Source of the DNA: Candidatus Latescibacterota bacterium
Lineage (GTDB): Bacteria; Latescibacterota; UBA2968; UBA8231
NCBI GenBank assembly: GCA_022820485.1
Contig: JAJEFJ010000088.1
Location: forward strand, 1 to 64,000
DNA: 64,000 nucleotides
Direction of reading: 5' to 3'
In this document: one piece after another, positions 37,006 through 59,806 of the stretch
How positions within the stretch are numbered: the stretch's first letter is position 1
Layout: every line of letters starts with the position of its first letter
The notes under the pieces: model-generated
Database searches by the model: none
Seen by the model: the letters and a program-made list of their open reading frames with translations, nothing else
Told to the model about the DNA's origin: nothing
Position numbers and translations under genes: made by a program

Positions 37006-37006
37006 A

Positions 37007-37873: not shown

Positions 37874-37937
37874 TAACCTATATCCCGTCTCCACAAAAGG
37901 GTGAGTGATAGAGCGTCAAAACAGCAACGCAAAGTCC

Positions 37938-41115: not shown

Positions 41116-41199
41116 GGACATTTTCTTGGGCCGATCAAGGATTGGTTGGCGTACTCTTGCAGTCAAATATATGTGAAGTCTTCTAGTTTCAAAGAGGGG

Positions 41200-41973: not shown

Positions 41974-42076
41974 CGTCTCTGCGGAACTCCCTGTGCGGCT
42001 TGGGTTTTCCACAGGCTTTGCGAGCGGTCGCCGCTTTGTCTTCTCACACATGCAAATTGTTCGCCAAACGCATATC

Positions 42077-42481: not shown

Positions 42482-44194
42482 CTACCGGGGCAGATAATGC
42501 GGATAGGGGACAATCTCGCCCTGCAAATGCCGGGCAAACAACCGAGCCTGCACCTCAATCAGCCGCCGCATAGAGACGCGATAGCCAAAAAGCGGATGCG
42601 TGGTTTCCTGCTCTAAACGGCGCTCAAACGCAGCGATAAAAGCCTTGCGACCGCCCGTTTTTAGCGAGCACGCCGGGCCATTGAACACAAAATCACCCGG
42701 TTTGACTTCGCCGTTGTTGATCGCCTGAATCACGCACGAGTCCGCGACAATGGGCCGGAACGGCTCCATCAAATCGAGCGCCAGTGCCGGGCGACCGTGG
42801 CGCGGGCGATGATAGAGGCCCATGTAGGGGTCCAAACCAGTCGCCGAGATCGCAGTCGTAAAAACCCGTGTCAACAGGGCATAGGCCAGCGATAGCATGG
42901 CATTTACCGGATCGGTGGGCGGACGCCGATTGCGCTTTGCAAAAGCGAACGCCGGCACATCCTCTTTCGCCCCCTCGGCGAGCATATTCGCAAAACAGGC
43001 GAAATAGATCGCTGCGGCCTCGCCCTCGATGCCCAGCAGTTGACGGTCGTCTTTGGCGCGGGGCACCCGCTGGACAATGCGCTGTAAGCGGACCAAAACT
43101 TCATTTTTGGCCTCTGCGTCTCCGTGGACGCGCCAGTTGCGCCGCAGCATCGTCCGCGCATTACGCACCTTAGCCGCCACCAAGTCACGCGCAAAAGCGA
43201 GGCGGCGAGGCTCGTCAAAAGCAGCTTGATACTGGGCTTGGCGCACGGCCACATTGCCATTGCCAGTCCCCACGGTGTGGCCGAGAAACCAGCCGCCGGT
43301 AGAAAACCACGACACTGGAATCTCGGCGTTCATCAGCGCGTGTAGAGCCGGCGTAGTTACCGAGACTGGACCGAATAGATCAACTTGGGAAACGTCGATC
43401 AGAGGCACCTCCACGGTATCTTCCTTGGTCTCCACCACCAAGCGCTCGCCGCTTTTGCGCAGCCGCGCACCCGGCGTTTGCACGTAGAGTGGCAGCGCCG
43501 GATCGTCGGACGGGTTCAGCGGGCGCGGCGGATACCCCTTGCGGAACAGATTGGTCTCATCCGGCAGGCAGATGCCAGCCAGCGAACAGCGCGGGCACTT
43601 GGGACTGTTTTCGAGCGGCGGTGGCCGACGACCAGCAGTCGCTGCCCAGCGCAGACCGGCAATCGCCTCCAGCGTCCGGGCGCGGAGTTCTTCGTCGATA
43701 ACAACCTGTACCCGCTCGCGTGATCCAGCGTACCAAAGCACACCTTGCTCGACCTCGTAGCCATTGTCTTCGAGAATCATGGCTTGGGTGCAGATTTGGA
43801 CGCGCTCCGGCTCGTAGGCTCCGGCAGCCACGTGGGGCCGCTTGCCCTTTTTGAAGTCCACCGGCATGGCGATGCCCTCGTCGGCCTCCACGACATCCAT
43901 CTTGGCGATAACGCCGAGACGCTCCGAGGAAAGCGTAACGGATCGGGCGCGAGTCATCTCCTCGCCTAGTTCATCGGGCGCGGGCAAGCGCCCCCCACCT
44001 TCATCGACCCGACCATGAGCGCGACGCCCCTCGGCTGTATCCCCACTTTCGGCCCACTCGCCTTCCACCCATTCCAAATAGGCCAGCCGTGGGCAATAGA
44101 CCCATTCGTTGACCATGCGAGCCGGGACGAGCGGCGTATCCTCATCGGCTAGCGGCGGAGCCAAGGGAAGGGTGAGTTGGTGATCGGGGGTCAT
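42482..44194 (-). CDS. cas4-cas1: Cas4-Cas1 fusion, CRISPR adaptation (type I-G kind)
   Basis: 570 residues. Cas4 part (~1-215): iron-sulfur Cys in NEWVYCPRLAYLEW, nuclease residues in MPVDFKKGK, and the C-terminal cluster CPRCSLAGIC (~205-214). Cas1 part (~228-570): VETKEDTVEVPLIDVSQVDLF, the catalytic Glu in IEGEAAAIYF (~375), His in GLYHRPRHGRPALALD and Asp/Glu in LMEPFRPIVADS. Both parts look active. Cas4-Cas1 fusions accompany type I-G systems; here the gene sits downstream of the type III operon, so one adaptation module probably feeds both interference modules. Confidence 0.96.
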   Translation of the reverse strand: MTPDHQLTLPLAPPLADEDTPLVPARMVNEWVYCPRLAYLEWVEGEWAESGDTAEGRRAHGRVDEGGGRLPAPDELGEEMTRARSVTLSSERLGVIAKMDVVEADEGIAMPVDFKKGKRPHVAAGAYEPERVQICTQAMILEDNGYEVEQGVLWYAGSRERVQVVIDEELRARTLEAIAGLRWAATAGRRPPPLENSPKCPRCSLAGICLPDETNLFRKGYPPRPLNPSDDPALPLYVQTPGARLRKSGERLVVETKEDTVEVPLIDVSQVDLFGPVSVTTPALHALMNAEIPVSWFSTGGWFLGHTVGTGNGNVAVRQAQYQAAFDEPRRLAFARDLVAAKVRNARTMLRRNWRVHGDAEAKNEVLVRLQRIVQRVPRAKDDRQLLGIEGEAAAIYFACFANMLAEGAKEDVPAFAFAKRNRRPPTDPVNAMLSLAYALLTRVFTTAISATGLDPYMGLYHRPRHGRPALALDLMEPFRPIVADSCVIQAINNGEVKPGDFVFNGPACSLKTGGRKAFIAAFERRLEQETTHPLFGYRVSMRRLIEVQARLFARHLQGEIVPYPHYLPR

Positions 44195-44293: not shown

Positions 44294-45367
44294 TCAGTTC
44301 CGAAGACACCGTGCAATGTATTCTTTAACCAACTCCGTTTGCTCTGTTCCGCGAGCAGAAGTCTCAATGCGTAAGGGCAAATTCTTGTCACTCTTACCAT
44401 ATCGCACCGTAATGACGCCATTAGTACCATCAAGCATCTTGACCACTTCTCCACCAAAGGCAGCCTTATCATAAGAGACTTGGCTTACACAATCGATCGC
44501 ACAAAGGCGAGAGACAAAATTCTTCCAACCCTTCGGACGGTGATGTTCCACACCAGAGAGTTGATCTTTTTCTTGCGGCGGTCTCGCCACCGCATCAGGC
44601 CAAGTCGAGCGAGGTTCAAGGCTCAACCGTTCCTTGGCAACGCGAAACAGCAAGTCGCCCGCGGCATTGAGGTATGAGTTTCCATCTGCATCATCCTCGA
44701 TAAGCGGTCGAAGTTCGGGACGTGCTTTTAATCGGTTTTCCACTTCCGTACTCGGACGAGGTTCGTCATCAATCCACTGAAAAAAATCCTCGCGTTCCAA
44801 CACCCATTGCACATCCCAATTCAATGGCAAGCGAGGCAGGCGAACAATCTCTCGAAATTGCTCATGGATGTAGTACACTTCGACCTCAAGCAAGGCACCC
44901 AATAAGTTGAGAAAGGCGATTTCAGCCTTGAATCCACCGGTGGCACAAAATACGGGGTTGAGGGATTTCTCACGTGCTTCGCGCACGGCTTTGATGGCTT
45001 CTTCGATCAAGACTTTCAACCCCTTTTGAGAGAAGCTAGCGTGAGAGTATCCCAAGGCCGTTAGCGAACGACCATCAACTTGACGACAGTGCTTAGCGTA
45101 TAAGTGTTGCAGCCGCTCTGAACAAAAGCGCCCTTCTGGTGTGTCGGAGTGGAGGAAGAGGATATGATCTGAGGCATGGACGCCAATGGCGTTCAAGGTA
45201 TTGGTTTCGGCGCTAGCTGTGACTGCCTCTGCTTGATCCAGCCACTGTTTTACGACTGCGGCGTCTGGCAACGGATCGCCAGCCCGCCCATTCCATCCTG
45301 CCCATGGGCGGTCATCGCGGTTGGTGAGCAAAGATGTTCCAACAGTGGTGATGAGCAACTGTGCCAT
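44294..45367 (-). CDS. CARF-domain CRISPR effector, possible C-terminal RelE-like domain
   Basis: 357 residues. Residues 1-175 are a CARF domain of the APE2256/Csm6-like kind: LLITTVGTSLLTN at the start and FCATGGFKAEIAFLNLLGALL (~140-160), the sites that bind cyclic oligoadenylate. Residues ~190-250 look like a small winged helix (NSYLNAAGDLLFRVAKERL). The last ~90 residues (WKNFVSRLCAIDCVSQVSY, NGVITVRYGKSD, LRIETSARGTEQ) have the size and strand pattern of a RelE toxin, like the CARF-RelE mRNA interferases. No HEPN R-x4-6-H motif is present, arguing against Csm6. It lies 27 nt after csm4, and cas10 has an intact cyclase motif. CARF part is firm; RelE part is inference. Confidence 0.8.
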   Translation of the reverse strand: MAQLLITTVGTSLLTNRDDRPWAGWNGRAGDPLPDAAVVKQWLDQAEAVTASAETNTLNAIGVHASDHILFLHSDTPEGRFCSERLQHLYAKHCRQVDGRSLTALGYSHASFSQKGLKVLIEEAIKAVREAREKSLNPVFCATGGFKAEIAFLNLLGALLEVEVYYIHEQFREIVRLPRLPLNWDVQWVLEREDFFQWIDDEPRPSTEVENRLKARPELRPLIEDDADGNSYLNAAGDLLFRVAKERLSLEPRSTWPDAVARPPQEKDQLSGVEHHRPKGWKNFVSRLCAIDCVSQVSYDKAAFGGEVVKMLDGTNGVITVRYGKSDKNLPLRIETSARGTEQTELVKEYIARCLRN

Positions 45368-45394
45368 ATAGGCATCAATCCTTCATTCGTAGGC

Positions 45395-46345
45395 TCACTG
45401 GTCGTTTACTTCTCGCCAGATCATGGGGACAGCGAGCCCGAAGGCTGCCTGAACCGGGTGAACGCCACGTTCGGCAAGCGATTCACGGGCATTTTTGCTG
45501 AGCAAACGCTCCGGCCCAATAGGGGCACCGTAAAAAGGTTTTGGAGGGTGTTTCGTGCGGAAGCAGGCACCGGCCGACAGCATGACCTGTGGACGTTTGA
45601 ACACGGCCGCCGAGTGGAACTCTGGAGCCAGTTTTCCGTACTTGACGAAGAGCCGCCAGAAACCTTCCACTGGGTCCGTAGCCGCTGGCTGGAACGTTGA
45701 GAGAGATATGAATCCGTCGGCTCTAGGAACATTATCCAGTTCGGAACAGGGTGTTGGCTCTCCTTCTAGCTCAAAGCTGCCGTGGCCCACCGAGGCATCG
45801 GCACCATATCCGGTCCGCCCCAGCATTCCCAAGACTTCCAGCAAAATCTGCAGGCCGCCATCGGTCGCGCGAGCAAAAATAGTCAAGTCGCAATCGGGCT
45901 TGCTGAGATTTGAAAACGGCACTTCAAAGAGTTCACCGCCAGCACCCGTGGTATTGGAAACGCGGGAGATGGTATTGCGCAGCCGTACGCGATCGCGGAT
46001 GGCGATACCGGAATCTTTTAGATTGGGTTTTTTCCCCTCTTGGACTCGACAAAAGTCGGTTGCAGTCATCCAGCGATGTTTCTTGACGTTCTTGCGTTTC
46101 TCTGCGGGCCAATCCCACCACAACGACAGCCCCGCCGGTGCTGGCAAAGAATCGCCGGGAAAAGCGTCGGATATGACAAACAGCGGCTCATGGGCGAGCC
46201 ACGGCTCCAAGAAGTCCCGCTGGAGCGCATCCTGCCCCCGAGAACGCGCCCATGTACACGCCATCGCGCCAAGCAGCGAATCCGCCTGCCAAGGCGTAGT
46301 CCAAACCCCGAGAGGCTTCAGCTTCAGGCGGACCAATGTTTCCAT
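45395..46345 (-). CDS. csm4: Type III RAMP protein Csm4 (Cas5 group)
   Basis: 316 residues. LKPLGVWTTPWQADSLLGAMA at the start and the glycine-rich GRTGYGADASVGHGSFEL (~195-212) are typical of Csm4, which caps the 5' end of the crRNA and contacts Cas10. The C-terminal part has KHPPKPFYGAPIG. Starts 22 nt inside csm3. No csm5 follows: the next gene is the CARF effector. Confidence 0.9.
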   Translation of the reverse strand: METLVRLKLKPLGVWTTPWQADSLLGAMACTWARSRGQDALQRDFLEPWLAHEPLFVISDAFPGDSLPAPAGLSLWWDWPAEKRKNVKKHRWMTATDFCRVQEGKKPNLKDSGIAIRDRVRLRNTISRVSNTTGAGGELFEVPFSNLSKPDCDLTIFARATDGGLQILLEVLGMLGRTGYGADASVGHGSFELEGEPTPCSELDNVPRADGFISLSTFQPAATDPVEGFWRLFVKYGKLAPEFHSAAVFKRPQVMLSAGACFRTKHPPKPFYGAPIGPERLLSKNARESLAERGVHPVQAAFGLAVPMIWREVNDQ

Positions 46346-46995
46346 GGGTTACCATCCAGTTTGAAATCGTGAAAACTCACCGCCCCCGAACCCCGGCTCG
46401 TCCCACCACCCAGACCCGTCATCTGAACTAGGCGCAAACCATCGGCGACGACCGCTTGGAGGGCTTCATCACCTTGATGCGAGCCGCCGTTGCCGTCCGT
46501 GTATGAGAAATGTCCGTCGAGATCGAATACTTGCAGAACGATCTGCATCTTGAACTCCGTACCCTCGACGACCCGCTCGTTGGATCGCGGATGTTGAGCC
46601 GCACCAGTTTGGCGGTTTATGACATTTTCCGTCTTGTTCTCGATGCGAACACCCGTGAGGGGCCTACCGTCGCGGACGATGATGCGGGAAGGGCCGAGAT
46701 TGCTTCTGGTGTTCATGTGCGCTCCAAATATCCGACAGATGGGGCATTCGTCCTTTGCACAACCGCACGGACGGTCATTGTCCCGGCCACCGAATCGGCC
46801 CAATTGCTTCTCCAATTCGCCTCGCATCTTTCCCTTCAGGGAGGAACCGGGGATATAGGGCTGACGAGTTGCCGGATTCTTGATCACCGGACTATCGGAG
46901 CCGCCAATTGCCAACTCGTCTTGCGAACCACCGATATGAAGGCCGCTTTCGCATCGAGCGGTAAAAGTAATGGCGTAAATAGCAGTTCTTTGCAT
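46324..46995 (-). CDS. csm3: Type III RAMP backbone protein Csm3 (Cas7 group)
   Basis: 223 residues, the usual length. GLHIGGSQDELAIGGSDSPVI carries the catalytic Asp at position 34, corresponding to the target-RNA-cutting Asp of characterised Csm3. PYIPGSSLKGKMRGELE, the Cys-rich CGCAKDECPICRIFGA (zinc-site insert) and the C-terminal GLGGGTSRGSGAVSF complete the family pattern. So target RNA cleavage should be intact. Confidence 0.95.
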   Translation of the reverse strand: MQRTAIYAITFTARCESGLHIGGSQDELAIGGSDSPVIKNPATRQPYIPGSSLKGKMRGELEKQLGRFGGRDNDRPCGCAKDECPICRIFGAHMNTRSNLGPSRIIVRDGRPLTGVRIENKTENVINRQTGAAQHPRSNERVVEGTEFKMQIVLQVFDLDGHFSYTDGNGGSHQGDEALQAVVADGLRLVQMTGLGGGTSRGSGAVSFHDFKLDGNPWKHWSA

Positions 46996-46996
46996 G

Positions 46997-47524
46997 TCAG
47001 GAATCCTTCCTCAGATGAGCGGCCCCAAAGCCGACCAATGCCTCGAAATGTGGCAAAAAGCCGTCCAGAAAAGCTCTTTCCGGCTCTTTTGTAGAGATTA
47101 CCCGCTTCACATTGTCATCGATGAAATTTTGAAATTCTTGAGGTATCTTGCCCGCCGATTTTGCGTTTTGGGCATGGTAACAGAGCGCCTCGAAGCCAGC
47201 AGATACTTGATGCCAGCTTTCGCCGTCAACTTTCAATCGACGTTCAATCTCGCGGCAGTGGTTGAAGAAACGGCGTAACTGGCCCGTGGTGAGATTAGGC
47301 TTGGCATTTCTTCCTAAGTATCGTGCCAAAATATCCACATTCCGCTTGGAGACGAAGGCGGGCTGAAGATAGCTTCGCCCTTGGTTATCAGTCTCGAAAT
47401 ACGAGTCTGGAAATTTTGGCGGGTCTTCCCTTGGCGGTTTGTTACGACCACCTCCGCGACCTCGCCGTTCTCGTTGTTCAGGTTGAAATCCCGCCTTTTT
47501 CATAGCATCCTCCATGCTAGTCAT
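46997..47524 (-). CDS. csm2: Type III small subunit Csm2
   Basis: 175 residues, or 168 from an ATG at 47503 that has GGAGG 6 nt upstream and is perhaps the better start. The first ~45 residues are basic and disordered (RRGRGGGRNKPPRED). The rest is the all-helical Csm2 domain (LTTGQLRRFFNHCREIERRL, FQNFIDDNVKRV, FLPHFEALVGF). Overlaps cas10 by 8 nt and ends 1 nt before csm3. Confidence 0.9.
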   Translation of the reverse strand: MTSMEDAMKKAGFQPEQRERRGRGGGRNKPPREDPPKFPDSYFETDNQGRSYLQPAFVSKRNVDILARYLGRNAKPNLTTGQLRRFFNHCREIERRLKVDGESWHQVSAGFEALCYHAQNAKSAGKIPQEFQNFIDDNVKRVISTKEPERAFLDGFLPHFEALVGFGAAHLRKDS

Positions 47525-48998
47525 CGCGTCCTTCCTTTCGCGGTCGTGTTGCCAACAAGGCGTAACGGAGACTCGCCGCCAATTCGCTTACGCGCTGTTC
47601 GTCGCGCTCTAGATATTCAATCACATGGTTCGCCCAGCGACGAAAGTCGGAGTAGCGTCGATGCACGTTGCGCTCAATCTGATAAGCCCAGCGGGCCGCA
47701 CTCAAAGACTTGCCGCTCTCCGCGAGACGCAACAAACGATGTAGTAGCGAGCGAGGTGCCACTCCACTCGCAACCCAGTCCGCTAGCTGCTTGCCATCGC
47801 CTACTACAGATTCGTGCTGCTTCCAACTCCAATCCGCCCCGAGGGCGGCGCACCGATTCTTGCCCGGACATTGCTTGGCCGACTCCAAGAGTTCCTCTGC
47901 ACGCTCCACTGCGTGGCGGATCGGTACGCGGTAAGGGGTTAGAGCGATTCCAGCGCTTAAAGTCAGCGGTGAATACTCTTGGGCCGGCCCTGTCTCAAAC
48001 TCTCTTGCTAGAGACCCGGCAAAATCGAGCACGATGTTCCAAGGGCCAACTAGCAGTAGATCATCCCCGCCGGCATACAGCGTATAGATCAAAGGCCATG
48101 ACTCTTCCAACAATTCCTGAATTGTCTGTCCGAAGAACTCGTGCAGACTGTAACTGAAAGATCGCAGCCGGTTATACGACGGGTCTTCTCCGGCAACTTG
48201 TCCGACCCGGACGCCCATGTCGTCCACATCGGCTTTCAGCACAGCTAGGCGATGGTCGCTACGAGCTTGCTCTGCGATCTCTTGGAATGTCAGCGGTTCT
48301 CTGGAATCGGGATGACGCGGTATCCAACGGCCCACGCGAAAGGATTCCGGCGTCTGGCTGTTCACGTTCTCAAAGCTGATGCCTAGCGCTCGCACCGATC
48401 CGCCACCGGGGCGCATCCACTTCCACCGTGTCAGCTTTTCACCGAGTCTGCGAGCCTCCAGACAGCTTTTGCAATGTAGAACCTTCTCACCTTCATACTG
48501 CACAACCTGGCTTCCCGGAGACTGACCACAGATGTCGCACGGCTTACCAAACGGCTCGTCAAGTGGAGGTTGACTCCAACCCTCTGGGTTCCAACCGCCA
48601 CTGCTTTGCAGCATGGAAGCTCCTATACGGCGCTTCTGAAGTTCCAGATGAGCGCGGGCGGCGAATGGCGTCTTACCCCAGCCCAGCGAGAACTGGACTT
48701 CTCCGCCGGATTCATCCCACAGCTTGCGTTGCAGACCGGAACGGATCTCCTCAAGATGAACCGGATCGGTAGCGGGTGGAATCCTTATCAGGAAACCACC
48801 GCCACCCTGGACTAGGACATCATCGTTGGCAATGTGCAAACGTTCCTTTACCGTCCAAAGTGCAGCATGTTCAAAAAGTTCAAGCAGGAAAGATCGAGCT
48901 CGCAAGCGCTTCGCCTGTGCTTTGCCCGCGCTTTTGACACCCAGCACATAACGCTGGATTCCAGAAAAATCACCAGCCAAATAGACTGCTTTGCTCAT
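47517..48998 (-). CDS. cas10: Cas10/Csm1 large subunit lacking the HD domain, cyclase intact
   Basis: 493 residues, against about 750-850 for Cas10 with HD. It begins directly with the first palm domain (AVYLAGDFSGIQRYVLGVKSAG), followed by a zinc ribbon (CDIC 154-157, CKSC 176-179), second-palm AVLKADVDDMG (~253-262) and the cyclase motif YAGGDDLLLVG with GGDD at 310-313. D4 helical domain at the end. With no HD motif the complex should not cut DNA, but should make cyclic oligoadenylate that activates the CARF protein encoded downstream. First gene of the csm operon. Confidence 0.95.
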   Translation of the reverse strand: MSKAVYLAGDFSGIQRYVLGVKSAGKAQAKRLRARSFLLELFEHAALWTVKERLHIANDDVLVQGGGGFLIRIPPATDPVHLEEIRSGLQRKLWDESGGEVQFSLGWGKTPFAARAHLELQKRRIGASMLQSSGGWNPEGWSQPPLDEPFGKPCDICGQSPGSQVVQYEGEKVLHCKSCLEARRLGEKLTRWKWMRPGGGSVRALGISFENVNSQTPESFRVGRWIPRHPDSREPLTFQEIAEQARSDHRLAVLKADVDDMGVRVGQVAGEDPSYNRLRSFSYSLHEFFGQTIQELLEESWPLIYTLYAGGDDLLLVGPWNIVLDFAGSLAREFETGPAQEYSPLTLSAGIALTPYRVPIRHAVERAEELLESAKQCPGKNRCAALGADWSWKQHESVVGDGKQLADWVASGVAPRSLLHRLLRLAESGKSLSAARWAYQIERNVHRRYSDFRRWANHVIEYLERDEQRVSELAASLRYALLATRPRKEGRDD

Positions 48999-49066: not shown

Positions 49067-49474
49067 TTATGGAATAACTTCAAAGCCCATCTGTCGGAAA
49101 TGGTGGTCCAATGTCAATGCTCGACGGATTCGCAGTTCTCGCATGAGAACAAAGCTGCAGCAGTCGGTAAAGGAGAATTCCTTATCCCGATAGCCAAAGA
49201 AAAGTGACCGCGCCCGTTCTCTTCGCGGTTCGTCAATAGACTCGATTCGCAGTCGAGCCGAGCCGTCGATTTGCTGCCACCAAGCTTCAGCAGCATTAAG
49301 ACCAAGGCGGAACCGGACGGTGGTCAGAGTCTCGTCGATCACATAGTCGGTCGTCGTCAGTACGCCTCCAGACGACAGCCATTGATCCCGAGCTTCTCGT
49401 ACCGCCGAACCCATCATATCACTACTATCCGCGGCCGCAACCCATGCGGCCGTATCCACAAACATTTGCCTCAC
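49067..49474 (-). CDS. PIN-domain toxin, VapC type
   Basis: 135 residues. Acidic PIN residues are all visible: FVDTAAW (D7), TDYVIDETLTT (E48), SFTDCCSF (D102 region) and LTLDHHFRQMGF at the end. Overlaps the antitoxin by 4 nt (ATGA). Full length, so probably an active RNase. It lies between array 2 and cas10 and could stabilise the island. Confidence 0.88.
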   Translation of the reverse strand: MRQMFVDTAAWVAAADSSDMMGSAVREARDQWLSSGGVLTTTDYVIDETLTTVRFRLGLNAAEAWWQQIDGSARLRIESIDEPRRERARSLFFGYRDKEFSFTDCCSFVLMRELRIRRALTLDHHFRQMGFEVIP

Positions 49475-49716
49475 CGGTACAGCACCTCGTCATGCCGTGC
49501 GGCAGCGTCCCCCGATTCGGATGCCCCAACGGCCGGGGCCTGGTACAGCGAATCCGATTCCAGTGGCGCGTTTTCGAGCGGTGGACTGCCAACCGGGACG
49601 ATGTCGAAAGCCGGACGACTGCGATATATAACGGTAAATCGCTCCCCGTGTCGCACTTTTTTAACGACATCCTGTAGGCGCTCGCGGAGCTGTTTGGCGC
49701 TGATCACCTCTGACAT
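49471..49716 (-). CDS. Phd/YefM-type antitoxin
   Basis: 81 residues from the ATG at 49716, 9 nt after the Shine-Dalgarno AAGGGGGG; the ATG at 49722 is too close to it and the open frame upstream to 49806 lacks a signal. VISAKQLRERLQDVVKKVRHG and FTVIYRSRPAFDIVPV are the DNA-binding Phd/YefM fold; the rest is the toxin-neutralising tail. It would repress its own promoter. Confidence 0.8.
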   Translation of the reverse strand: MSEVISAKQLRERLQDVVKKVRHGERFTVIYRSRPAFDIVPVGSPPLENAPLESDSLYQAPAVGASESGDAAARHDEVLYR

Positions 49717-49842
49717 AGTCATGCCCCCCTTCAAGTTTAACTTAAGATAATCTTTTCTCAGAAGCGATACAATCTCAATTGGTTCGGGAAAACTCAGGCG
49801 CAGCAAGGTACCTTGCCCCAGCCTTTGGCCTTGCTTGGAGAG

Positions 49843-50099
49843 GCTTCAATGAGGCCGGGGCGGTTACTCCCCGGAAATACAGCCCGCCTGAGGACTCCGG
49901 CTTTGGTGGTTGCTTGCTTCAATGAAGCCGGGGCGTTGCCACCCCGGAAATACCGCCAAAGCCTTTGCTGAGTTCCAGTGCGGCGTCCAGCTTCAATGAG
50001 GCCGGGGCGGTGCCACCCCGGAAATACCGCCAAAGCCTTTGCTGAGTTCCAGCGCGGCGTCCAGCTTCAATGAGGCCGGGGCGGTGCCGCCCCGGAAAT
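49843..50099. CRISPR. CRISPR array 2: 4 repeats of 36 nt, 3 spacers
   Basis: Repeats start at 49843, 49916, 49990 and 50064, with the same consensus as array 1 and variation only in the centre (GGTTACT, GTTGCCA, GGTGCCA, GGTGCCG) plus one A in the second (GAAGCC). Spacers are 37, 38 and 38 nt. Spacers 2 and 3 are identical except for one base (AGTGCGG versus AGCGCGG). The array lies between csb3 and the antitoxin. Direction is not certain; by repeat orientation it is transcribed leftward like array 1. Confidence 0.97.
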
Positions 50100-50134
50100 C
50101 ACCATAACCAACGTCATGAGTTAGCCGTCTTGGA

Positions 50135-51061
50135 TCATATAGGTACCGCCTGCGTGAAATTGCGATACTTATCCCTAGTAATTCGCTGACTCCGATAAAC
50201 CTCGACAACGCCTAACGCTAAAAGACTCTTACGATCCGGTAGAGGCTTTTGCAACTCGGCCAAGCTGAGCAGAGACCGCACGACTTCAATACCCAAAGCC
50301 CCTTCCCAGATTGGCCACGAGAACAACACTCCTTCACCACGCCGCTGCGAAAAGCCAGTCGTATGTAAGTGCCGTTCCCCAGGTGCAGTAGGGAAAAGAG
50401 GCAGCGCTTCCACGGCGAGACGATTGGCACCGCGCATCGTGCGTACTGGATCGCCCGAAGGTTCCTTCCAACGCAGAGCATACCTGCGGTCGTCCAAAGG
50501 GTCCCAGCGCATACTCGGCTTGGGGTCTGAATATTGCCACACCTCAAACAAGGAAGCACTCAAATGATCTGACTTAGTGCATTCCACGAGTTCTCGCATG
50601 GAGCCGATGAAGTGCTGATGTCCGGCTCCGCTCATAGTTCTCAGCGCCGTGTCCTGAATGCGTGAGTCCTTCGCGGAGATGGGGAGGCTATCGCAACCAA
50701 AGGCGGCAATGAAATCTGCATAGTGCCGATCAGTGAGCACTGCTGCGTTGGAGGCGGATTGAGCTACTTGCCGGAACTCCTCACAATTAATCGTTAGATC
50801 GTTGGCAAACTTAAACGCATCTTTCATCTCTGTTAGAGCAGGCATAAGTAGTTCGATCAAATCATCCGCTGTAAGCGCTATGTCCCCAAGTAACACAGGA
50901 GACCAGTGCCCACCCTGCTCTTTCCAACTTATACGCCAGTTCGTCGATGAATTTGCCTCAGTCGCAATTCGCAAAGTACCAATAGCCGCGAGAAACCCGA
51001 GCGGATTGCTGCCGTCGAGTCCATTGAGCAAAAGTCCCGAGCTTGATTTATTGGCCGTCAT
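50135..51061 (-). CDS. csb3: Csb3, type I-G Cas8-like subunit
   Basis: 308 residues from the ATG at 51061, which overlaps the cas3 stop (ATGA) and has AGGAGG upstream. LLLNGLDGSNPLGFLAAIGTLR near the start is the motif shared by Csb3/Csx17, the large-subunit equivalents of type I-G. The C-terminal half has RWDPLDDRRYALRWKEP and GEGVLFSWPIWEG. It would recognise target DNA with the Cascade-like complex. Shorter than Csx17 (about 700), matching Csb3. Confidence 0.82.
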   Translation of the reverse strand: MTANKSSSGLLLNGLDGSNPLGFLAAIGTLRIATEANSSTNWRISWKEQGGHWSPVLLGDIALTADDLIELLMPALTEMKDAFKFANDLTINCEEFRQVAQSASNAAVLTDRHYADFIAAFGCDSLPISAKDSRIQDTALRTMSGAGHQHFIGSMRELVECTKSDHLSASLFEVWQYSDPKPSMRWDPLDDRRYALRWKEPSGDPVRTMRGANRLAVEALPLFPTAPGERHLHTTGFSQRRGEGVLFSWPIWEGALGIEVVRSLLSLAELQKPLPDRKSLLALGVVEVYRSQRITRDKYRNFTQAVPI

Positions 51062-54006
51062 TGTGTCTCCTCCTGTTCGCTCTGCCGCCAATCAGCAAGC
51101 CGCAGCAGCGCTTCCAGCCAAGCCAAACCCCACCAGCCATAGCGCCGCACCAGCCGCCAATAGCGATCCGCAACCCCAGAATCGAGACGCTCAAGGCCGG
51201 TGGGACCAGACCAGTGCGTCGGTTGGCCGCGCAACTCGAAATCCACATCCACGCCCTGCTCATCGAATATCACCGGCGCAAACGGCCGACAGTGGCCGTG
51301 ATGGCTGGCGATTAAATGCAGAACCAAGTCGCGCAGATCGTCCCTTTCCGGCAAAAGCACCGACGCACTTTCGGCCAAGCGCACCGAAAGCAGTTCGTGC
51401 CGCCCACCTTTGGGATAGCCGGAAGCGGTCCTCGCCCTCTTATAGGCTACCCGATTTCTCGGTATTTCGGCAGACTTAGCGAGAGGTTCTCCGCCCAACC
51501 ACCGAGCACCGCCACGCAACAAAGACTGAAATCGTGGATCGGCCTTACCCAAATCGTGTAACAGACCAGCGCAGGCGATGGCTTCAACCAAGTCATCCGG
51601 CAAGCCGCAGCCCACAGCATGACGGCGGGCCAATGCTTCGACATCGGGAAGGTGCCTTAGCAGTTTGACGGGACGCCCAATACCGGACGCGCTAGCATCA
51701 TCCTCATCACTAAAGATGTCGGCTTCGTGAGTGAGTTTCCGAATGCGGCGACTTCCGATAAACACCAAGCTATTGTTGCCGACTATGTGAAGTCTCGACC
51801 CAGAAAAATCCTTGCAGAGTTCGCTCGCGGTGTCTGATAGCCAAGGCGATTCGGGCGATTTGGAAAGTTCTGTCAGAAGATCGCGCAAGGTATCGTCAAC
51901 CTCATCGTCTTCGTCTTTTCGTTCCAAATCTATCAATAACTCACGAGCGTTTTCTTTGCCCGTAACGGAACTCGGCCAACCATCCACTAGCTTCGGGTGC
52001 AAGCGGAGGATAGGCTTAGCACGGGCGAGCCGATAGGCGCGGTCCCCCACATCCAAGTCAGCATCCGGTGGCAGGTCTCCGAGTTGACGAGGATCTCCCG
52101 GATGGTTGGCCGGGATCACGATAACATCGCCGGGCCGAATCGCCTTGGGATCCGCTGCGATGTCCCCGACCTCCGTCTCGGCCCCTCGCCACCGCACAAC
52201 CAAGCGTTCCACCACGAACGAACTGTCCTCACTAATGCCGTCCTCAGTTCCGATTCCTTCCACATCGGCACTGTCGTCTGCGGCGTCTTCTCCGGCCAGC
52301 CAACGTCTGAACACACCGACTGGCACCGGGAGCGTCTCACTGTTGCTCGGCGGACACAGGGACAGAAGTTCCAGTGCCGTTTCCTTTTTATGGATCAAAT
52401 CCACATCAGCGCGCCAACAGACCTGCACATCCGCCACGCCTTCGCGGGGACCGTGTAGGAACGGAGCCACATCGGGCGAAGGTTGTGGTTCCGGTGCGGT
52501 CTGCGCCCAGCAATCGACGTGGGCGGGAAGCATCACCGGAGCATCGACGGAAGGCGCGTTGAGCGAAGAGTCGCCGTCCGGCAGATAGGCGATTCCAAAA
52601 TCGACCTCGCCATTTTCGTTTTTGTGCTCGTTGAGCCAATGCCAAGTCTTGGTAAGGGCCTCGCGATACACGGGATCATCCCCTTTGTCGCCTATTTGGT
52701 CTCCGCGTATGAGAATCGCCGCTCGCGCATCGATTTTCCGCCCCATGCGATTCAGGCGACCAAAACGCTGGCGCAGGGCGTCGAGACTCGCGCACTCGGT
52801 CACCAAGCCGTCGAAATCGAGATCGGCCCCAACTTCCAGAGTTTGGGTAGCGACGACGATCATCGGCCTTGCCAAAGTACGTTCTGCGGATTGGCTCGAC
52901 TGGAGGGGTTCTAAGCGTTGTACGACGACCTCCTTGTCAACAGGGCGCATCCGACCTGTCAGCAGTACAGCGTCAATGTCTTCCCGGCTTTGAAGCAAGC
53001 AATAAGTCTCCCGCGCCGTGGCAACGCGATTGACGAACACCACGATAGCGCGGCGTTGATCGTTGAGCAGCCCCGATGCAGCCTCGGTCAAAGCCCTAGC
53101 CAGCACATTCGTAGCCCGTTTCCCCTTGGCTTTTCCGACTGTCTTCAGGACGGCGGGCTTTTGTGCTAGTTGACGCTTACCTAGCGGGTGGGTAGGATCG
53201 CGGCTTTCTTCGGATAAATCCTCAAACCGCTCCATCTCCGGTGGTGGGGTCGCCGACATCACTACCGAGTAAAAAGGACGCTCAAGCGGAGTATGCCCCC
53301 ATTTTTGATAGCGCCGCACTGCTTGCAGGGTTTGCAAGAATGGCTGGGCACAATGCGCCTCGTCGAGTAGGATTAGACTGTCGTTGGCGACCAACCCCGC
53401 AGCTATCGGCCACGTGCTAGGACCACGCCCGTAGCCGCGAAATAACAGGCGGGATCCGATTTGATCGACAGTCGAAGCCACCACCATGGGTTGAAGCGGG
53501 CTACTCATCCAAGCCTCCGACCGATACATACCGCCGCGCAATACATGAGCAGTCAACGGTAACTCTCCCGCAAATCCGTCCGCCCCACCGTGGGCAATCT
53601 GTCGTAGGCTGTCTGCAACGCGCTTGAGAATACCTTCCTGTGCCTTCTCAAGATGATCTGCCAGCAGGCGCGCCCGCTCGTATGCTTGGTCCACGATTAC
53701 GCGCCGGTCAACGACCAAGAACACGCGACGAGGTGCAGTGATAGCTTGCTTCCGAGCCAACCGAGATGCCTGGGCCGCCAACGCGAATACCGCAATATCC
53801 AAGCACGCGGTCTTGCCTGCTGCTGTCGGTAAGGCGATGGCTTCGGGCCAAGGAGCCTCTGTCCGCTCCAGCACTCTATCCACCAATGCCTGTTGCCAAG
53901 CGAAAGGCGGATGGCCCCACAATTTGTTGAAGAACTCGGCGAAAGCCGTAGCGTTTAACTCAGCCACGGTCTCCACCTTTTTTATCCATTGGGCGGCATA
54001 ACCCAT
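51058..54006 (-). CDS. cas3: Cas3 helicase-nuclease with C-terminal HD domain (type I-G)
   Basis: 982 residues. Superfamily 2 helicase: Walker A LPTAAGKT (59-66), DEAH at 215-218 (LLDEAHCAQ), motif III VVMSATPPP, and C-terminal helicase motifs TLEVGADLDFD and RQRFGRLNRMG. The HD nuclease lies at the C-terminus: LLHDLGKADPRF (815-826), GGRHE and ASHHGH. This order, helicase before HD, is typical of type I-G. It degrades DNA bound by the complex. Overlaps csb2 by 47 nt. Confidence 0.95.
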   Translation of the reverse strand: MGYAAQWIKKVETVAELNATAFAEFFNKLWGHPPFAWQQALVDRVLERTEAPWPEAIALPTAAGKTACLDIAVFALAAQASRLARKQAITAPRRVFLVVDRRVIVDQAYERARLLADHLEKAQEGILKRVADSLRQIAHGGADGFAGELPLTAHVLRGGMYRSEAWMSSPLQPMVVASTVDQIGSRLLFRGYGRGPSTWPIAAGLVANDSLILLDEAHCAQPFLQTLQAVRRYQKWGHTPLERPFYSVVMSATPPPEMERFEDLSEESRDPTHPLGKRQLAQKPAVLKTVGKAKGKRATNVLARALTEAASGLLNDQRRAIVVFVNRVATARETYCLLQSREDIDAVLLTGRMRPVDKEVVVQRLEPLQSSQSAERTLARPMIVVATQTLEVGADLDFDGLVTECASLDALRQRFGRLNRMGRKIDARAAILIRGDQIGDKGDDPVYREALTKTWHWLNEHKNENGEVDFGIAYLPDGDSSLNAPSVDAPVMLPAHVDCWAQTAPEPQPSPDVAPFLHGPREGVADVQVCWRADVDLIHKKETALELLSLCPPSNSETLPVPVGVFRRWLAGEDAADDSADVEGIGTEDGISEDSSFVVERLVVRWRGAETEVGDIAADPKAIRPGDVIVIPANHPGDPRQLGDLPPDADLDVGDRAYRLARAKPILRLHPKLVDGWPSSVTGKENARELLIDLERKDEDDEVDDTLRDLLTELSKSPESPWLSDTASELCKDFSGSRLHIVGNNSLVFIGSRRIRKLTHEADIFSDEDDASASGIGRPVKLLRHLPDVEALARRHAVGCGLPDDLVEAIACAGLLHDLGKADPRFQSLLRGGARWLGGEPLAKSAEIPRNRVAYKRARTASGYPKGGRHELLSVRLAESASVLLPERDDLRDLVLHLIASHHGHCRPFAPVIFDEQGVDVDFELRGQPTHWSGPTGLERLDSGVADRYWRLVRRYGWWGLAWLEALLRLADWRQSEQEETQ

Positions 54007-56320
54007 ATCCCCGGAAGCGACCCGCCCCCACGATCACCGGCCCGCGTACCGGCTCGTCAAAGACGATCACCGCGTGATTATGGCTCCGTCGCCCGCCGCC
54101 GTTCTTGTGCACCAGTTGCGGATACTCCCTCGCATGGGGGACGCCCTCAATCAGCGAAACCGGGTGCAGCAATACCTCGCGTGGGCGCGGCAGACCAATG
54201 TGCAGACACGCATCTTTCACGCTCTCAGCCGCCCGCTCCCATTTGTCCTTGCCATCGAAATGTCGGTTCAGTACCACCGGGGTCACGCTCGCCCAAACGT
54301 GCGATGCCCGTGTCCAAGTATCCGGGTCAATATTTTTCGGCGGGCGTTCGCGGGTTTCCAGTTCAATAGCACACTCGAACCACCGGCCATCGAACAAAGG
54401 ATGTTCACGCGACAATCCGGTAGCTGGATCGCGTAGGATCGGTTCGAGGCAATGCCCGGCCTTCTGCTGATCCAAGCCTGTCGGCAGAACCAGCGCCAAA
54501 CCCATAATGCTACCATCTGCATGTTCCGATCCGACGAAGGGGAGCGGAGTCAAGGCCAGATGAGGATCCGCAGTGGGCGTTCCGTCCGGGCGATGGCCGC
54601 TGAACCATTCAGGCGGCGGTTGTTCGGGACACCCTTTCATCAATAAGCCGCGCAGGGCCGCCGTGAGCTTGAGCGTCGCCGGTAGAGACACGCGCTTGCC
54701 TTTGATGCCGAGGACAACGAACCGAGAGTCGAAAACCGAGCTGGGAACTTCGGAGACCTTATCTTTCGGGGGCCTATCGTATCCCTGCCAACGGCCCGGC
54801 ACCGGGCGCAGGCTCACGGGTTCCCCATCGGGAAAACGGTTTTCCAAACGCGCTTTCATTTCCTTGATATATTGTCTTTGCTCGCGAGGACTTCGTCCAT
54901 GACTTCTACCACTTCCTGCACGCATTGCCGCAGCAAGTCTATTTCGGATGGTGTCAACATCCGGGGAGCGGGCGAGGTACCGAGCTTCTGATTGAGTAAG
55001 GCAATCGAAGGCGTGGCCGAAGTGTGTTTTCCACCATCTCTCGAAGTCTGATCCGTGTTTTTGTCGGAGTTCATGCAATTGCTCCTGTGAGGGGTTTAGT
55101 TTAGCCGAGTAGGGTTTGCCGGTCAGCGCAACGGCCCCGACGACCTTCCCGCCTTTTTTTTCGATATAGCCCCGCAAATTCGCCAGCGTGCCACCCTGAC
55201 CGACGAAATCGTCCACCATCACGTATTCGCGTTCCTTCTCAACCGTTCCTTCAAATGCAGCTTGCCGAGCGAGCCGGCCATAGCCGTCAGCGCCTGTATG
55301 GCTGACGATATTAGTCTGAACGACGGTCCTGTCGAACAGGGTATCCAAGCGGTCATTTAACAGTCTCGCCAAGGCAGCCGGGATCGCATTGAAGCCTCCG
55401 CGCTCGTAGGCACTTGCGCTGACCAATATGGGCTCGCCGCATTCACTAACCTCGGCGATCATTGATCGAACCTCGGCAATTCCTGATTCGTCAACCAAGC
55501 TGTCAACTAGGCTAGCCGCAGCCGCGACGTCATAGCTCGATTTTGCGTCAGGATAATCTGGATGCTGCTTGACCGCGGATTCACTGGCCAGTAGCACCAC
55601 ATCCGCGAATGCCTTCCAAGGCACCCTTGGCGGTTGTTTCATCGCCTTGCGGTCCGCCTCAGCTTGCTCAATCTCGCCGCGAAGATCGTGGTAGGAGATC
55701 CATGCGGCGCGGTTCATGCGCGTTTCCAACATCTGCAAGCGTCCAAGACTCGTTACACGCAGTCGCTGACGGGCGACGCCAGCCACCGGAATCCACGTGC
55801 ATTCCGGCGGCTTGGCTTCCAGCCACATTTGCACAAAGGAGGCTGAATGCCCCACATGGGTAACTTTGGCGACCAGCCGTTCCAAGGCAGCGCGATGAGC
55901 ACCTAACTCGACCTCTGGCCAGATCAGATACACCATCAGGTCGTGAGGAATGGCAACGGGGAAACTACGAGGCTGGCGTGACCGATGCTCTGGAAGCTGG
56001 GCCAATCCGGCATCCTTTAGCTTGTTCAGGTCTCCGCTAGTAGGCACCTTGCGACTGAGGCTCACGTCGTTGACGGGCACATAGCTAACAACAGTGGTGC
56101 GGCTGTCCGCATCCGAGGCGGCAATCGCAGGGGGCGGCAAGGCTTCAAGCCAGCGTAGGGCCTCGCCTTCGGCGGGATCTTCATCGGTCTCGAACCAAGC
56201 TGCCGCCAACGCCATGAACACCCGATCGGGATGCGGTGGCCATTCGGCCTGTTCTTTTCGCGCCCCGTCTGCCGCTGCCATGGACCATCCATTCAGGTAA
56301 TGGATGCCAAGAGAGAACAT
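53960..56320 (-). CDS. csb2: Csb2 (Cas5-Cas6-like) with an inserted phosphoribosyltransferase domain
   Basis: 786 residues, while Csb2 is usually about 450-550. Residues 1-~228 are Csb2: WPPHPDRVFMALAAAW, WLEALPPPAIAASDA, VSYVPVNDVS, TFP-type PRSFPVAIPHDLMVYLIWP, VTHVGHSASFVQM. Residues ~495-786 are the rest of Csb2: EPVSLRPVPGRWQGYDRPP, GLLMKGCPEQPPPEWFSGHRP, DPHLALTPLPFVGSEHADG, TPVVLNRH and the glycine-rich GPVIVGAGRFRGYGLCRPMD. Between them, ~232-466, is an intact phosphoribosyltransferase: HPDYPDAKSS, ERGGFNAIPAALARLL, QTNIVSHTGADGYGRLA and the PRPP-binding signature VMVDDFVGQGGTLA (367-380). Csb2 normally processes pre-crRNA and binds its end. Both Csb2 halves stay in frame, so a composite protein is expected. 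Overlaps csb1 by 1 nt. Confidence 0.92.
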   Translation of the reverse strand: MFSLGIHYLNGWSMAAADGARKEQAEWPPHPDRVFMALAAAWFETDEDPAEGEALRWLEALPPPAIAASDADSRTTVVSYVPVNDVSLSRKVPTSGDLNKLKDAGLAQLPEHRSRQPRSFPVAIPHDLMVYLIWPEVELGAHRAALERLVAKVTHVGHSASFVQMWLEAKPPECTWIPVAGVARQRLRVTSLGRLQMLETRMNRAAWISYHDLRGEIEQAEADRKAMKQPPRVPWKAFADVVLLASESAVKQHPDYPDAKSSYDVAAAASLVDSLVDESGIAEVRSMIAEVSECGEPILVSASAYERGGFNAIPAALARLLNDRLDTLFDRTVVQTNIVSHTGADGYGRLARQAAFEGTVEKEREYVMVDDFVGQGGTLANLRGYIEKKGGKVVGAVALTGKPYSAKLNPSQEQLHELRQKHGSDFERWWKTHFGHAFDCLTQSEARYLARSPDVDTIRNRLAAAMRAGSGRSHGRSPREQRQYIKEMKARLENRFPDGEPVSLRPVPGRWQGYDRPPKDKVSEVPSSVFDSRFVVLGIKGKRVSLPATLKLTAALRGLLMKGCPEQPPPEWFSGHRPDGTPTADPHLALTPLPFVGSEHADGSIMGLALVLPTGLDQQKAGHCLEPILRDPATGLSREHPLFDGRWFECAIELETRERPPKNIDPDTWTRASHVWASVTPVVLNRHFDGKDKWERAAESVKDACLHIGLPRPREVLLHPVSLIEGVPHAREYPQLVHKNGGGRRSHNHAVIVFDEPVRGPVIVGAGRFRGYGLCRPMDKKGGDRG
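54856..55074 (-). CDS. Short ORF overlapping the inserted PRTase region in another frame
   Basis: 72 residues, entirely inside csb2. It does not look like a random shadow: hydrophilic N-terminus (MNSDKNTDQTSRDGG) and an amphipathic end LTPSEIDLLRQCVQEVVEVMDE. As I recall, free PRTase genes of this type in mobile elements are often followed by a short overlapping ORF with a TPSEI-like motif; this would then be a passenger brought in with the insertion. No good ribosome binding site was checked beyond the overlap. Speculative. Confidence 0.4.
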   Translation of the reverse strand: MNSDKNTDQTSRDGGKHTSATPSIALLNQKLGTSPAPRMLTPSEIDLLRQCVQEVVEVMDEVLASKDNISRK

Positions 56321-57522
56321 CAGTCTTCCCCTTCTCCCGATGTACTAGCCAATTCCTGGCTGAGCCGAACTAGTTCGACAAGGTCGGGCGATGGAGTCAA
56401 CTCAATCTCGTCCTCCCACGGTAGTCCCGCGTTTTTCGCTTTGGCAATCGCCGCTGCCAACAGTTTCAGGGCGTCTTCGGGACTAAGTTCAAATTCCCGT
56501 GGCGGTTCTCCAGGGCGGTCGAGCAGTTCCCACACAGGTTCTTGTTCAGCGAAAAGCTGGCAGCGAGAACGAAGGTCTGTATCGATCCTCGCTAGAGTAC
56601 CAGCGGCAATGCCCAAGGCGGCCAGTGCGGTACGTGCCGCGAGGTCGGTATCGTGGTCGGAATCCGCATCACCGTTGAGCGGAAAACGGAGCCGGCGCAA
56701 GACGGTCAAAGACAAGGTTGTAGTTTGCCGGGCCTTGGAGATGGTGAATCCTCCTTCCTCAATACTCGTTAATATGTTTCCATGATTCGCTTCCGATGGC
56801 CTTCCCGTCTTTTTGAGTTTCTTGCTGCTGTCCTTCTTATCTAAGGTCCAGTCGGGTGTGTCACTGCTTTTAGACTTGCGTTCGTAGAGCGTAGCCGAAT
56901 CGCGCATGATCGACGCTGGATCAATACGGATAGCTGTTTTCTTCCCCACTACTACATCATACCCCATGATCTCCGACACTACCGCCCGCTGAAACTTGCA
57001 CCCTGCACCGCCACGAGGCGCGGTCGAGTCCCATAGCCCAAATACCAACGCAGTCGGACACAAGCCAAATAGGCCGGTGGCATTCCGCACCTCCGCAGTG
57101 TCGAGTATTCGACCTTTCTCCGATTTGCGGAAAATCATGCCGTCGAGCAAACTGTCGCGGAACAGCGCATCTGCAACGCGATGCGGTGCTTCCAAGCTAG
57201 TCACTGAGAATTTTTTGAGCAGTTGCTCCTGATCGAAGCGCGTTACCAGCAAGGGAAGCCTGACCTTGCCGGAGCGATGCGCCTCCAACAGTGCCAACTC
57301 CATGCGGTTGGCTTGCGACTGCACCGAATCTAAGAGAACGCACTGTCGAACCTCGCCGGTAGCGGGATCAATGCGCTCCTCGGTAGCGTATTTGCCGCCT
57401 CCATAGGTCGGAGGAAAAACCTTGTCGCCGGGGCCTCCTGCCGGCTGATAGTCGGTCACACACCGGAACGCCGCCGCCGTCCCACTGACCACGTCTTTCA
57501 AGGTCTTTAGATCAATCGTCAT
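56320..57522 (-). CDS. csb1: Csb1, type I-G Cas7-like backbone subunit
   Basis: 400 residues. LLDSVQSQANRMELALLEA, RVADALFRDSLLDG, RDSLLDGMIFRKSE and GLWDSTAPRGGAGCKFQRAVVSEIMGYD are the Csb1 (GSU0053-like) motifs. It forms the filament on crRNA in the type I-G complex. First gene of the csb1-csb2-cas3-csb3 operon; its stop overlaps the start of csb2. Confidence 0.94.
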   Translation of the reverse strand: MTIDLKTLKDVVSGTAAAFRCVTDYQPAGGPGDKVFPPTYGGGKYATEERIDPATGEVRQCVLLDSVQSQANRMELALLEAHRSGKVRLPLLVTRFDQEQLLKKFSVTSLEAPHRVADALFRDSLLDGMIFRKSEKGRILDTAEVRNATGLFGLCPTALVFGLWDSTAPRGGAGCKFQRAVVSEIMGYDVVVGKKTAIRIDPASIMRDSATLYERKSKSSDTPDWTLDKKDSSKKLKKTGRPSEANHGNILTSIEEGGFTISKARQTTTLSLTVLRRLRFPLNGDADSDHDTDLAARTALAALGIAAGTLARIDTDLRSRCQLFAEQEPVWELLDRPGEPPREFELSPEDALKLLAAAIAKAKNAGLPWEDEIELTPSPDLVELVRLSQELASTSGEGED

Positions 57523-58258: not shown

Positions 58259-59806
58259 TCATGCTCGCTCGACGTCAAAAGCCGCCAAGTTGCGCTCATC
58301 CTTGCTGAACTCCACGCCAATCAAGTAAATCGGCTGCCCCAAGCCGCGATACTTATCCGCGTAGCGCCGCTCCTGCAACTGCGCTATCGCCGCACCCGCA
58401 GACGACAGCTCGACTACCTTGAACTCGAACAGATAGACGTTGCCGTTGAACAAAACCGCCATGTCCAAGCGGCCGTGGCTGATGCTGTCCTCCACCCTGA
58501 TGTCCAGTCCCAACGCGGCGAAATAGGAATAAAACACGCTGGCGTAGTAACCCTCGTAACCGGCGATGTCGTTGTTGTTATACCACTCGTAGGGAATGCT
58601 GGCGAAAAAGGCGTGGAACAGCGTCTTCAGCCCGGCGAAATCGTTGGCTTCCAGCAGCCGGTAGAGCCGCACGCTGTTGGCCATCTGCCGCGTCGAGTCC
58701 TTCACCAAATAACGCAGTAAGCTACGGTTCAGACTCTGCCGTACCTCCCGGTTGGGATAGCCGAGGCGATAGAGCTTCATACCGCCGAGGTTCTCTTCTT
58801 CCGTTATCGTCAGGTAGCCGGTCTGGAACAGCAGCGCCTCGGTCGCCATGTCGTCCACGTCGAAGGTGGAAAGCAGTTCGCTGCTGCCCAGCATATTTTC
58901 CAGTTCTAGGGAGCTCACCCGACGCTTGAACAGGGTTTCGACTAGGAATGTCGGCGTACCGGTTTCGAACCACCAAGCACCAAACTTGCGCTTGTCGAAC
59001 AGCAGCAGGATATCAAAGGGGTTGTACACCTTCTCGTCGCCCCGCCAACGGTAGCCGTTGTACCAGTCGCGGATCTGGTCCCGGTCTAAGCCGGGAAGTT
59101 CTGGTGCGAAGACGGTATCCAAGTCCGCGTCGGTGTAGCCGCAGATAGCTGAGTAGCGGGGATCTAGGGTGATGTCGATCAGGTTGTTGAGGCCGGAGAA
59201 GGGGCCGGCCATAGAGAACTTGCTCACTCCGGCGAGGAAGGTGAAACAAACATGGGCGTCGCTGTCCTTGACGACCGAGAACAGCCCGCGCAGAAAGTCG
59301 CGGTTAGCGCGGGCGACATCCGGCACCTCCAGCGCATCCAAAATCGGCTTGTCATACTCATCTACCAGCACTACAACGCGCTGCCCAGCCTGCCGACTCA
59401 GTGCCCCAAGCAGATGGCGAAAGCACGCCGAGGCGCTCTCGTAACGGGTCGCAACTCCCGCCTCTTCTGCCAAATCTTGTAGTTGCGCCATCGCGTCTTC
59501 GCGCAGACCGCCCCGCTCGTAGTAACCACCGCCACTGAAGTCCAGCCGCAGCACCGGATACCGCTGCGACCAATCCCAGCGGTCGTGGATGGCCAGCCCC
59601 GCAAACAGCGACTCGTTGCCCTCGAACAATTCCTTGAGCGTGTCGAGAAACAGGCTCTTGCCAAAGCGGCGCGGACGCGACAGAAAATAGTGCGTACCCT
59701 CGTCGAACAGCCGGCGTATGTGGGCCGTTTTATCGACGTAGTAGCAATCCTCCTCGCGGATCTCGCGGAAGGTCTGAATGCCAATGGGCAGTCTGCGCTT
59801 GGTCAT
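58259..59806 (-). CDS. AAA-ATPase-like / PD-(D/E)XK nuclease family protein, right flank of CRISPR island
   Basis: 515 residues, same length and order as 39568-41115 and strikingly similar to it. RRLPIGIQTFREIREEDCYYV, P-loop region SRPRRFGKSLFLDT, Walker B VVLVDEYDKPILDAL, FLAGVSKFSMAGPFSGLNNL, and a C-terminal GRLDMAVLFNGNVYLFEFKV (PD-(D/E)XK-type D and ExK). The central 110-150 part differs most (insertion of LAEEAGVATRYESAS). Bracketed by 59-bp direct repeats. Family is often multicopy, which suggests mobility. Confidence 0.88.
   Translation of the reverse strand: MTKRRLPIGIQTFREIREEDCYYVDKTAHIRRLFDEGTHYFLSRPRRFGKSLFLDTLKELFEGNESLFAGLAIHDRWDWSQRYPVLRLDFSGGGYYERGGLREDAMAQLQDLAEEAGVATRYESASACFRHLLGALSRQAGQRVVVLVDEYDKPILDALEVPDVARANRDFLRGLFSVVKDSDAHVCFTFLAGVSKFSMAGPFSGLNNLIDITLDPRYSAICGYTDADLDTVFAPELPGLDRDQIRDWYNGYRWRGDEKVYNPFDILLLFDKRKFGAWWFETGTPTFLVETLFKRRVSSLELENMLGSSELLSTFDVDDMATEALLFQTGYLTITEEENLGGMKLYRLGYPNREVRQSLNRSLLRYLVKDSTRQMANSVRLYRLLEANDFAGLKTLFHAFFASIPYEWYNNNDIAGYEGYYASVFYSYFAALGLDIRVEDSISHGRLDMAVLFNGNVYLFEFKVVELSSAGAAIAQLQERRYADKYRGLGQPIYLIGVEFSKDERNLAAFDVERA

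Follow-up and report, generated by a model that had tools for sequence, protein, structure and literature searches.

The window, i.e. the whole stretch of 64,000 nucleotides analysed here (Candidatus Latescibacterota bacterium, contig JAJEFJ010000088.1), carries a type I-G CRISPR module whose csb2 gene contains a phosphoribosyltransferase (PRTase) domain, next to a type III-A module and two CRISPR arrays. The features are as follows.

56320-57522, minus strand: csb1 / cas7g
53960-56320, minus strand: csb2 (type I-G cas5-cas6), 786 aa, containing the PRTase domain
55655-56320, minus strand: Cas5-like N-terminal half of Csb2, residues 1-222
54839-55636, minus strand: PRTase insert, residues ~229-494, with a conserved core at 238-476 (PHROG 22413, AlphaFold/Foldseek)
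55181-55222, minus strand: PRPP-binding signature VMVDDFVGQGGTLA, residues 367-380
54875-55021, minus strand: nucleotide block frozen at synonymous sites, codons ~434-482
54856-54960, minus strand: +1-frame micro-ORF, MLTPSEIDLLRQCVQEVVEVMDEVLASKDNISRK and stop, 34 aa, ATG at 54960
53963-54838, minus strand: Cas6-like C-terminal half of Csb2, residues 495-786
54074-54076, minus strand: codon of His749, which probably corresponds to the catalytic H503 in Csb2 of T. sulfidiphilus
51058-54006, minus strand: cas3g helicase-nuclease
50135-51091, minus strand: small Cas8g-like / Cas3-extension protein of type I-G
49843-50106, minus strand: CRISPR array, 4 repeats (Rfam CRISPR-DR16)
44294-48998, minus strand: type III-A module (APE2256/CARF-type protein, csm4, csm3, csm2, cas10)
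42482-44194, minus strand: cas4-cas1 fusion, identified from sequence and homologous loci
42183-42476, minus strand: cas2-like ORF of 97 aa, adjoining cas4-cas1
41200-41980, minus strand: CRISPR array, 11 repeats (Rfam CRISPR-DR16)

A preliminary description of this DNA held csb2 to be one uninterrupted frame of 786 codons at 53960-56320 on the minus strand, with Csb2 motifs on either side of an intact PRTase signature at residues 367-380 and with the other cas genes and the CRISPR repeats intact. All of this is confirmed, the last point for csb1, cas3g, cas8g, cas4-cas1, the cas2-like ORF, the III-A genes and both arrays. The NCBIfam model TIGR02165 ('type I-G Csb2') matches two stretches that flank the insert (E 1e-86), covering both Csb2 halves at 292 bits against a curated cut-off of 45; Pfam Cas_GSU0054 is matched as well, and His749 is conserved in 72 of the 72 Csb2 proteins having a residue at that column. 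Outside residues ~229-494, the window protein shares 59% identity with an insert-free Csb2 encoded on a Methylomagnum plasmid. The range first given for the PRTase, 232-466, located it correctly but was slightly too short, alignment to insert-free Csb2, by which the boundaries were set, giving ~229-494. Nor does the insert sit in a surface loop, as had been considered: the site is the Cas5-Cas6 linker. As for a target-site duplication, the borders show only a weak MK..MK repeat, unusable given the age of the insert. The genome (6.26 Mb, 107 contigs) holds a single copy of the fused gene.

The insert combines the PRPP loop hhhhDDxxxxGGT with a PRTase fold. PHROG 22413 matches residues 238-467 (E 1e-57) while housekeeping PRTase models of Pfam and NCBIfam reach E ~0.01 only, so that, by profile E-values, the insert is nearer to mobile-element PRTases than to housekeeping ones. 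In the AlphaFold model of the whole fused protein (mean pLDDT 83), Foldseek finds Cas6 and PRTase fold matches together; the structural check suggested beforehand for the 786-residue protein thus yields both folds simultaneously, the relative placement of the domains being unsure at a pTM of 0.59. From architecture and conservation, it is practically certain that this is a Csb2 with a complete type I PRTase domain between its Cas5-like and Cas6-like halves.

The I-G Csb2 of Thioalkalivibrio sulfidiphilus processes pre-crRNA and remains on its 3' hairpin; when it was split at R260 both halves folded, the C-terminal half still cleaved crRNA, and the N-terminal half was needed in complex assembly (PMC9638904). 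The window Csb2 resembles this protein in the family match on both sides, in the C-terminal histidine and in its Cas7, Cas3 and Cas8g neighbours, but differs from it by ~265 extra residues, the PRTase, in the linker between the halves.

The fusion is not confined to the window. In a survey of Csb2 (one genome per species), the best 80 of 216 loci were analysed, and the search proposed earlier for other Csb2 with an insert at the same position found it, or a truncated form of it, in 24 further loci. The match is unbroken through the insert in L013-L031, L033 (where it ends at the contig edge) and L034, L021 and L022 being two contigs of one genome; the fused gene is 5'-truncated in L032, L035, L036 and L037 and broken in L045. 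All inserts occupy one site, the helical linker joining the Cas5-like and Cas6-like halves. The fused loci are labelled Pseudomonadota, Nitrospirota, Acidobacteriota, Latescibacterota, Binatota and Deltaproteobacteria, at least six named phyla, with the caution that labels of metagenome bins may be wrong; L015, L023, L025 and L028 lie on long contigs (4.3-6.1 Mb). Habitats differ too, L030 being a groundwater genome and L035 Hydrogenophilus.

Selection acts on the insert as it does on its host protein. In close pairs with usable dS, the dN/dS of the insert is ~0.09-0.29, the same range as in both Csb2 halves; in three very close pairs, whose dS is at most ~0.1, the estimates are noisy and reach 0.7. 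The DD, GGT, ANLRG and NAIP motifs are invariant among inserts, and little or no variation is seen in three blocks: the PRPP signature, NAIP and HTG..GYGRLARQ. Judging from these alignments, the PRPP site is preserved by selection. The idea of a neutral passenger, raised at the outset, is contradicted by the purifying selection and the invariant PRPP motif, and neutral insertion is ruled out on the former ground; an assembly chimera is rejected, for the fusion recurs in about two dozen independent genomes, several of them with contigs of 4-6 Mb. Domain linkers do tolerate insertions, but in the face of this recurrence and selection a passenger or chimera is exceedingly improbable. Recurrence in many genomes, selection and mobile-element relatives point instead to a domesticated mobile-element domain.

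Those relatives deserve a closer look. The nearest free-standing ones are the KfrC proteins of IncU/IncP-like plasmids (~35-38% identity), with an Acinetobacter plasmid gene at 41% and the PRTases of Moraxella phages Mcat8 and Mcat5 at 44-47%. KfrC of the IncU plasmid RA3 and of IncP-like plasmids (PMC8124265) has in common with the insert a PRTase (~37% identical, N-terminal in KfrC), the DD motif and a +1 micro-ORF open at the end of the PRTase domain; unlike the fused Csb2, it is a free-standing plasmid protein having its own C-terminal domain for VirD4/KorB contacts and no CRISPR link. Replacing DDT by alanines in KfrC of RA3 abolished growth inhibition, and no intact clone of the PRTase half by itself could be obtained (PMC8124265). 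Along the same line, the polyvalent PRTases of phages and plasmids, e.g. the coat-PRTase of Mcat8, belong to the same group and have a +1 micro-ORF overlapping their 3' end (PMC5512222 for the proteins); unlike the insert, they are joined to head or MuF-type proteins, none having been found reported in a Cas protein. Mobile-element PRTases have been described as a distinct group, their function being called enigmatic (PMC5512222). No close relative of the insert alone was found in the viral contigs searched. An origin of the insert in mobile elements, as a PRTase of the KfrC/polyvalent-protein kind, is very probable. Searches of a single full-text library (no subscription papers or preprints) yielded no report of a Csb2 with a phosphoribosyltransferase or of CRISPR-associated phosphoribosyltransferases.

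The PRTase tree groups every fused insert, also those of L030 and L035, in a single clade (100/100) that excludes the PRTases of plasmids and phages. The Csb2 tree, computed without the insert, places 21 of 22 fused proteins in one neighbourhood together with a few plain sequences, among which four plain Caldilineaceae Csb2 are nested inside it (probable loss); L030 falls among plain Csb2 with starred support, and three changes are needed. Taken together, the two trees show that one PRTase was captured, then inherited, exchanged and sometimes lost. The in-frame capture of a mobile-element PRTase between the Csb2 halves, as first proposed, therefore stands, but not as a one-off event, since the lineage is conserved across many phyla. 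Exchange is visible within the window insert itself: residues ~236-400 show mostly 62-80% nucleotide identity to the nearest relatives while the flanks show mostly 80-95%, and synonymous divergence from L013, L014 and L016 is there about double that of the flanks or more.

Towards its 3' end the insert hides a second frame. Among 20 fused genes, synonymous differences are near saturation gene-wide (~0.70) and drop to 0.21 at codons 434-482; from codon 454 selection is stronger on the +1 frame than on the frame of csb2 itself (frame 0). At codons 455-472 pN/pS is 0.51 in +1 vs 0.88 in frame 0, and the +1 ratio is below that of frame 0 in 22 of 760 analysis windows, forming one contiguous block with starts at codons 448-469. 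Downstream of the ATG, the values are 0.44 vs 1.07 in fused copies and 0.37 vs 0.85 in isolated ones; for the csb2 set the two frames have overlapping bootstrap intervals, the viral set (see below) being clearer. The frame would encode a product starting MLTPSEIDLLRQ (34 aa in the window) and is present in all fused and truncated-fused copies at 31-40 codons. Resampling of synonymous codons gives ~1e-10 for the ATG and open frame being kept in 22 of 22 copies, a figure uncorrected for relatedness.

The frozen segment also recurs as isolated relics next to cas3 or cas4-cas1 in other I-G modules, where the micro-ORF is open in nearly all cases and frame 0 often broken. Cases in point within the genus of the window are G002 and G007, with an isolated copy 5' of cas3, and G004, with a frameshifted copy followed by a lone CRISPR-repeat-like sequence. 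Persisting in loci without a PRTase, the micro-ORF is not merely a cis antidote. It is no general type I-G gene either, being absent from all 47 genomes carrying plain Csb2. An RNA element as the cause of the frozen block was discarded (Rfam finds CRISPR repeats only, and no base pair of the alignment fold covaries), as were a promoter within it (none convincing) and a start farther upstream, the 60 nt before the ATG being conserved with no +1 coding signal (ratio ~1). There is no Shine-Dalgarno-like sequence 5' of the ATG; the micro-protein has no significant match in Pfam, PHROG, NCBIfam or PADLOC, and none of the viral contigs searched has a close relative of it alone.

The same frame is found in mobile elements. 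On viral contigs, the +1 motif LT.SEI.SLR occurs in 26 of 27 distinct C-terminal and 25 of 26 internal PRTases (51 of 53 in all), and the micro-ORF is likewise present in all nine scored plasmid PRTase genes (KfrC and relatives). In C-terminal viral PRTases, the +1 frame extends 9-34 codons beyond the PRTase stop; over the first 11 codons, 26 of them give a pN/pS of 0.27 in +1 vs 1.31 in frame 0, with +1 differences of 0.22, 0.13 and 0.42 at the three codon positions. Similarity in +1 is partly passive, deriving from frame 0; the codon-position pattern is not so explained. On these substitution patterns, the +1 micro-ORF is under selection and is an old feature of mobile-element PRTases, and the frame is likely to be translated.

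As to how it would be read, isolated copies without upstream frame 0 favour internal initiation, and viral copies without a start codon favour a +1 frameshift. A programmed frameshift would yield either a truncated Csb2-PRTase with no Cas6 half or, in viral PRTases, a C-terminal variant. The constraint does change frame at a single point, a TCC.CCG.G site lies 5' of the switch in all fused copies inspected, and many viral and plasmid versions have no ATG at the micro-ORF start, several lacking any start codon at the switch; against this, L009 and L010 retain both the ATG and the constraint in +1 although they have neither an open frame 0 upstream nor CCCC. I regard frameshifting in place of internal initiation, for the micro-ORF only, as rather unlikely.

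What the PRTase may do in Csb2 is suggested by its motif, its fold and its relatives. Given the conserved residues, it probably retains PRPP binding or catalysis and would act on a small molecule. Each crRNA keeps a Csb2 at its 3' hairpin, so that there would be one PRTase per effector. The likeliest role of the domain would be that of a back-up effector, tethered to the CRISPR complex and either inhibiting growth or consuming nucleotides; the micro-ORF product (31-40 aa) would be its cognate partner, restrainer or activator. The effector reading is preferred because growth inhibition by KfrC depends on the catalytic motif; a single PRTase per Csb2 is ill-suited to enzymes that work as dimers, which counts against it. 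Arguing from KfrC, the back-up role itself is possible but somewhat doubtful; the whole explanation, a captured PRTase as tethered PRPP-dependent effector with the micro-ORF product as partner, is the best I can offer and is held at a little under even confidence.

The fold leaves room for other roles. Modelled alone, the PRTase (pLDDT 82, pTM 0.80) matches orotate, adenine and xanthine PRTases, PurR and ComF with probability ~1.00 at modest TM-scores (~0.3-0.5). A ShosT structure with PRPP-Mg (8zvc) also figures in the fold matches, and the viral structure library gives distant PRTases only. Because PurR and xanthine PRTase appear in their ppGpp-bound entries, because regulatory PRTases have been described (PMC9005727), and because the domain is placed between the halves of the crRNA-processing subunit, it might be a ligand sensor (of PRPP, ppGpp or nucleotides) tuning crRNA processing or effector assembly in the manner of PurR and PyrR, with no toxin involved. 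Conservation beyond the PRPP loop and the catalytic dependence of KfrC weigh against a sensor, which is unlikely. A nucleic-acid-handling module akin to ComFC, holding e.g. the displaced strand or the crRNA 3' end, would agree with the ComF match, with the binding of single-stranded DNA by ComFC independently of its nucleotide site (PMC9005727) and with an arginine common to polyvalent PRTases and ComFC (PMC5512222), but could do without the PRPP loop, which is strictly conserved; ComFC and ShosT resemble the insert at the level of the fold only, and such a role is improbable.

Extending the preferred effector reading, mobile-element PRTases might be a two-component module, an enzyme plus a hidden +1 protein of ~25-50 residues across its 3' end, swallowed whole by a CRISPR effector with both frames kept. 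The crRNA-bound complexes would thereby have gained a controllable PRPP-dependent effector, and decayed I-G loci would keep the micro-protein alone; this wider proposal is speculative. If true, a CRISPR effector bears a metabolic enzyme taken from the elements it fights, perhaps as a weapon or sensor on loan to the immune complex, and mutating two residues would directly test whether a type I system has a back-up or signalling role. The +1 micro-ORF, common to KfrC of broad-host-range plasmids and to phage PRTases, would be a candidate for the missing partner of the enigmatic domain (PMC5512222).

Some further observations concern the CRISPR region as a whole. Two AAA-ATPase_like/PDDEXK_9 genes (39568-41166 and 58259-59806), 74% identical and in the same orientation, bracket it, and recombination between them could delete or exchange the region; in G004 all that is left of it is a glyoxalase-like gene, the micro-ORF relic and a single gene of this AAA-ATPase_like/PDDEXK_9 type. 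The cas4-cas1 gene (42482-44194) is 97% identical to that of the same-genus G002 (L009, 11496-13205) while the I-G effector genes of the two share only 22-30% identity, which indicates that the effector module was swapped and the adaptation module retained. In L023/L132 and L032/L131, another I-G module, complete and with a large Csx17-like protein, comes after the fused one, a micro-ORF copy lying between the second csb2 and cas4-cas1. A PIN toxin and a Phd/YefM-type antitoxin (49067-49806) separate the I-G array from the III-A genes. Within that array, two adjacent repeat-spacer units (49916-50063) are 96% identical, spacer included, a recent duplication with few changes, and a tandem gene duplication at 36154-37894 has units of ~82% DNA identity across 300 nt.
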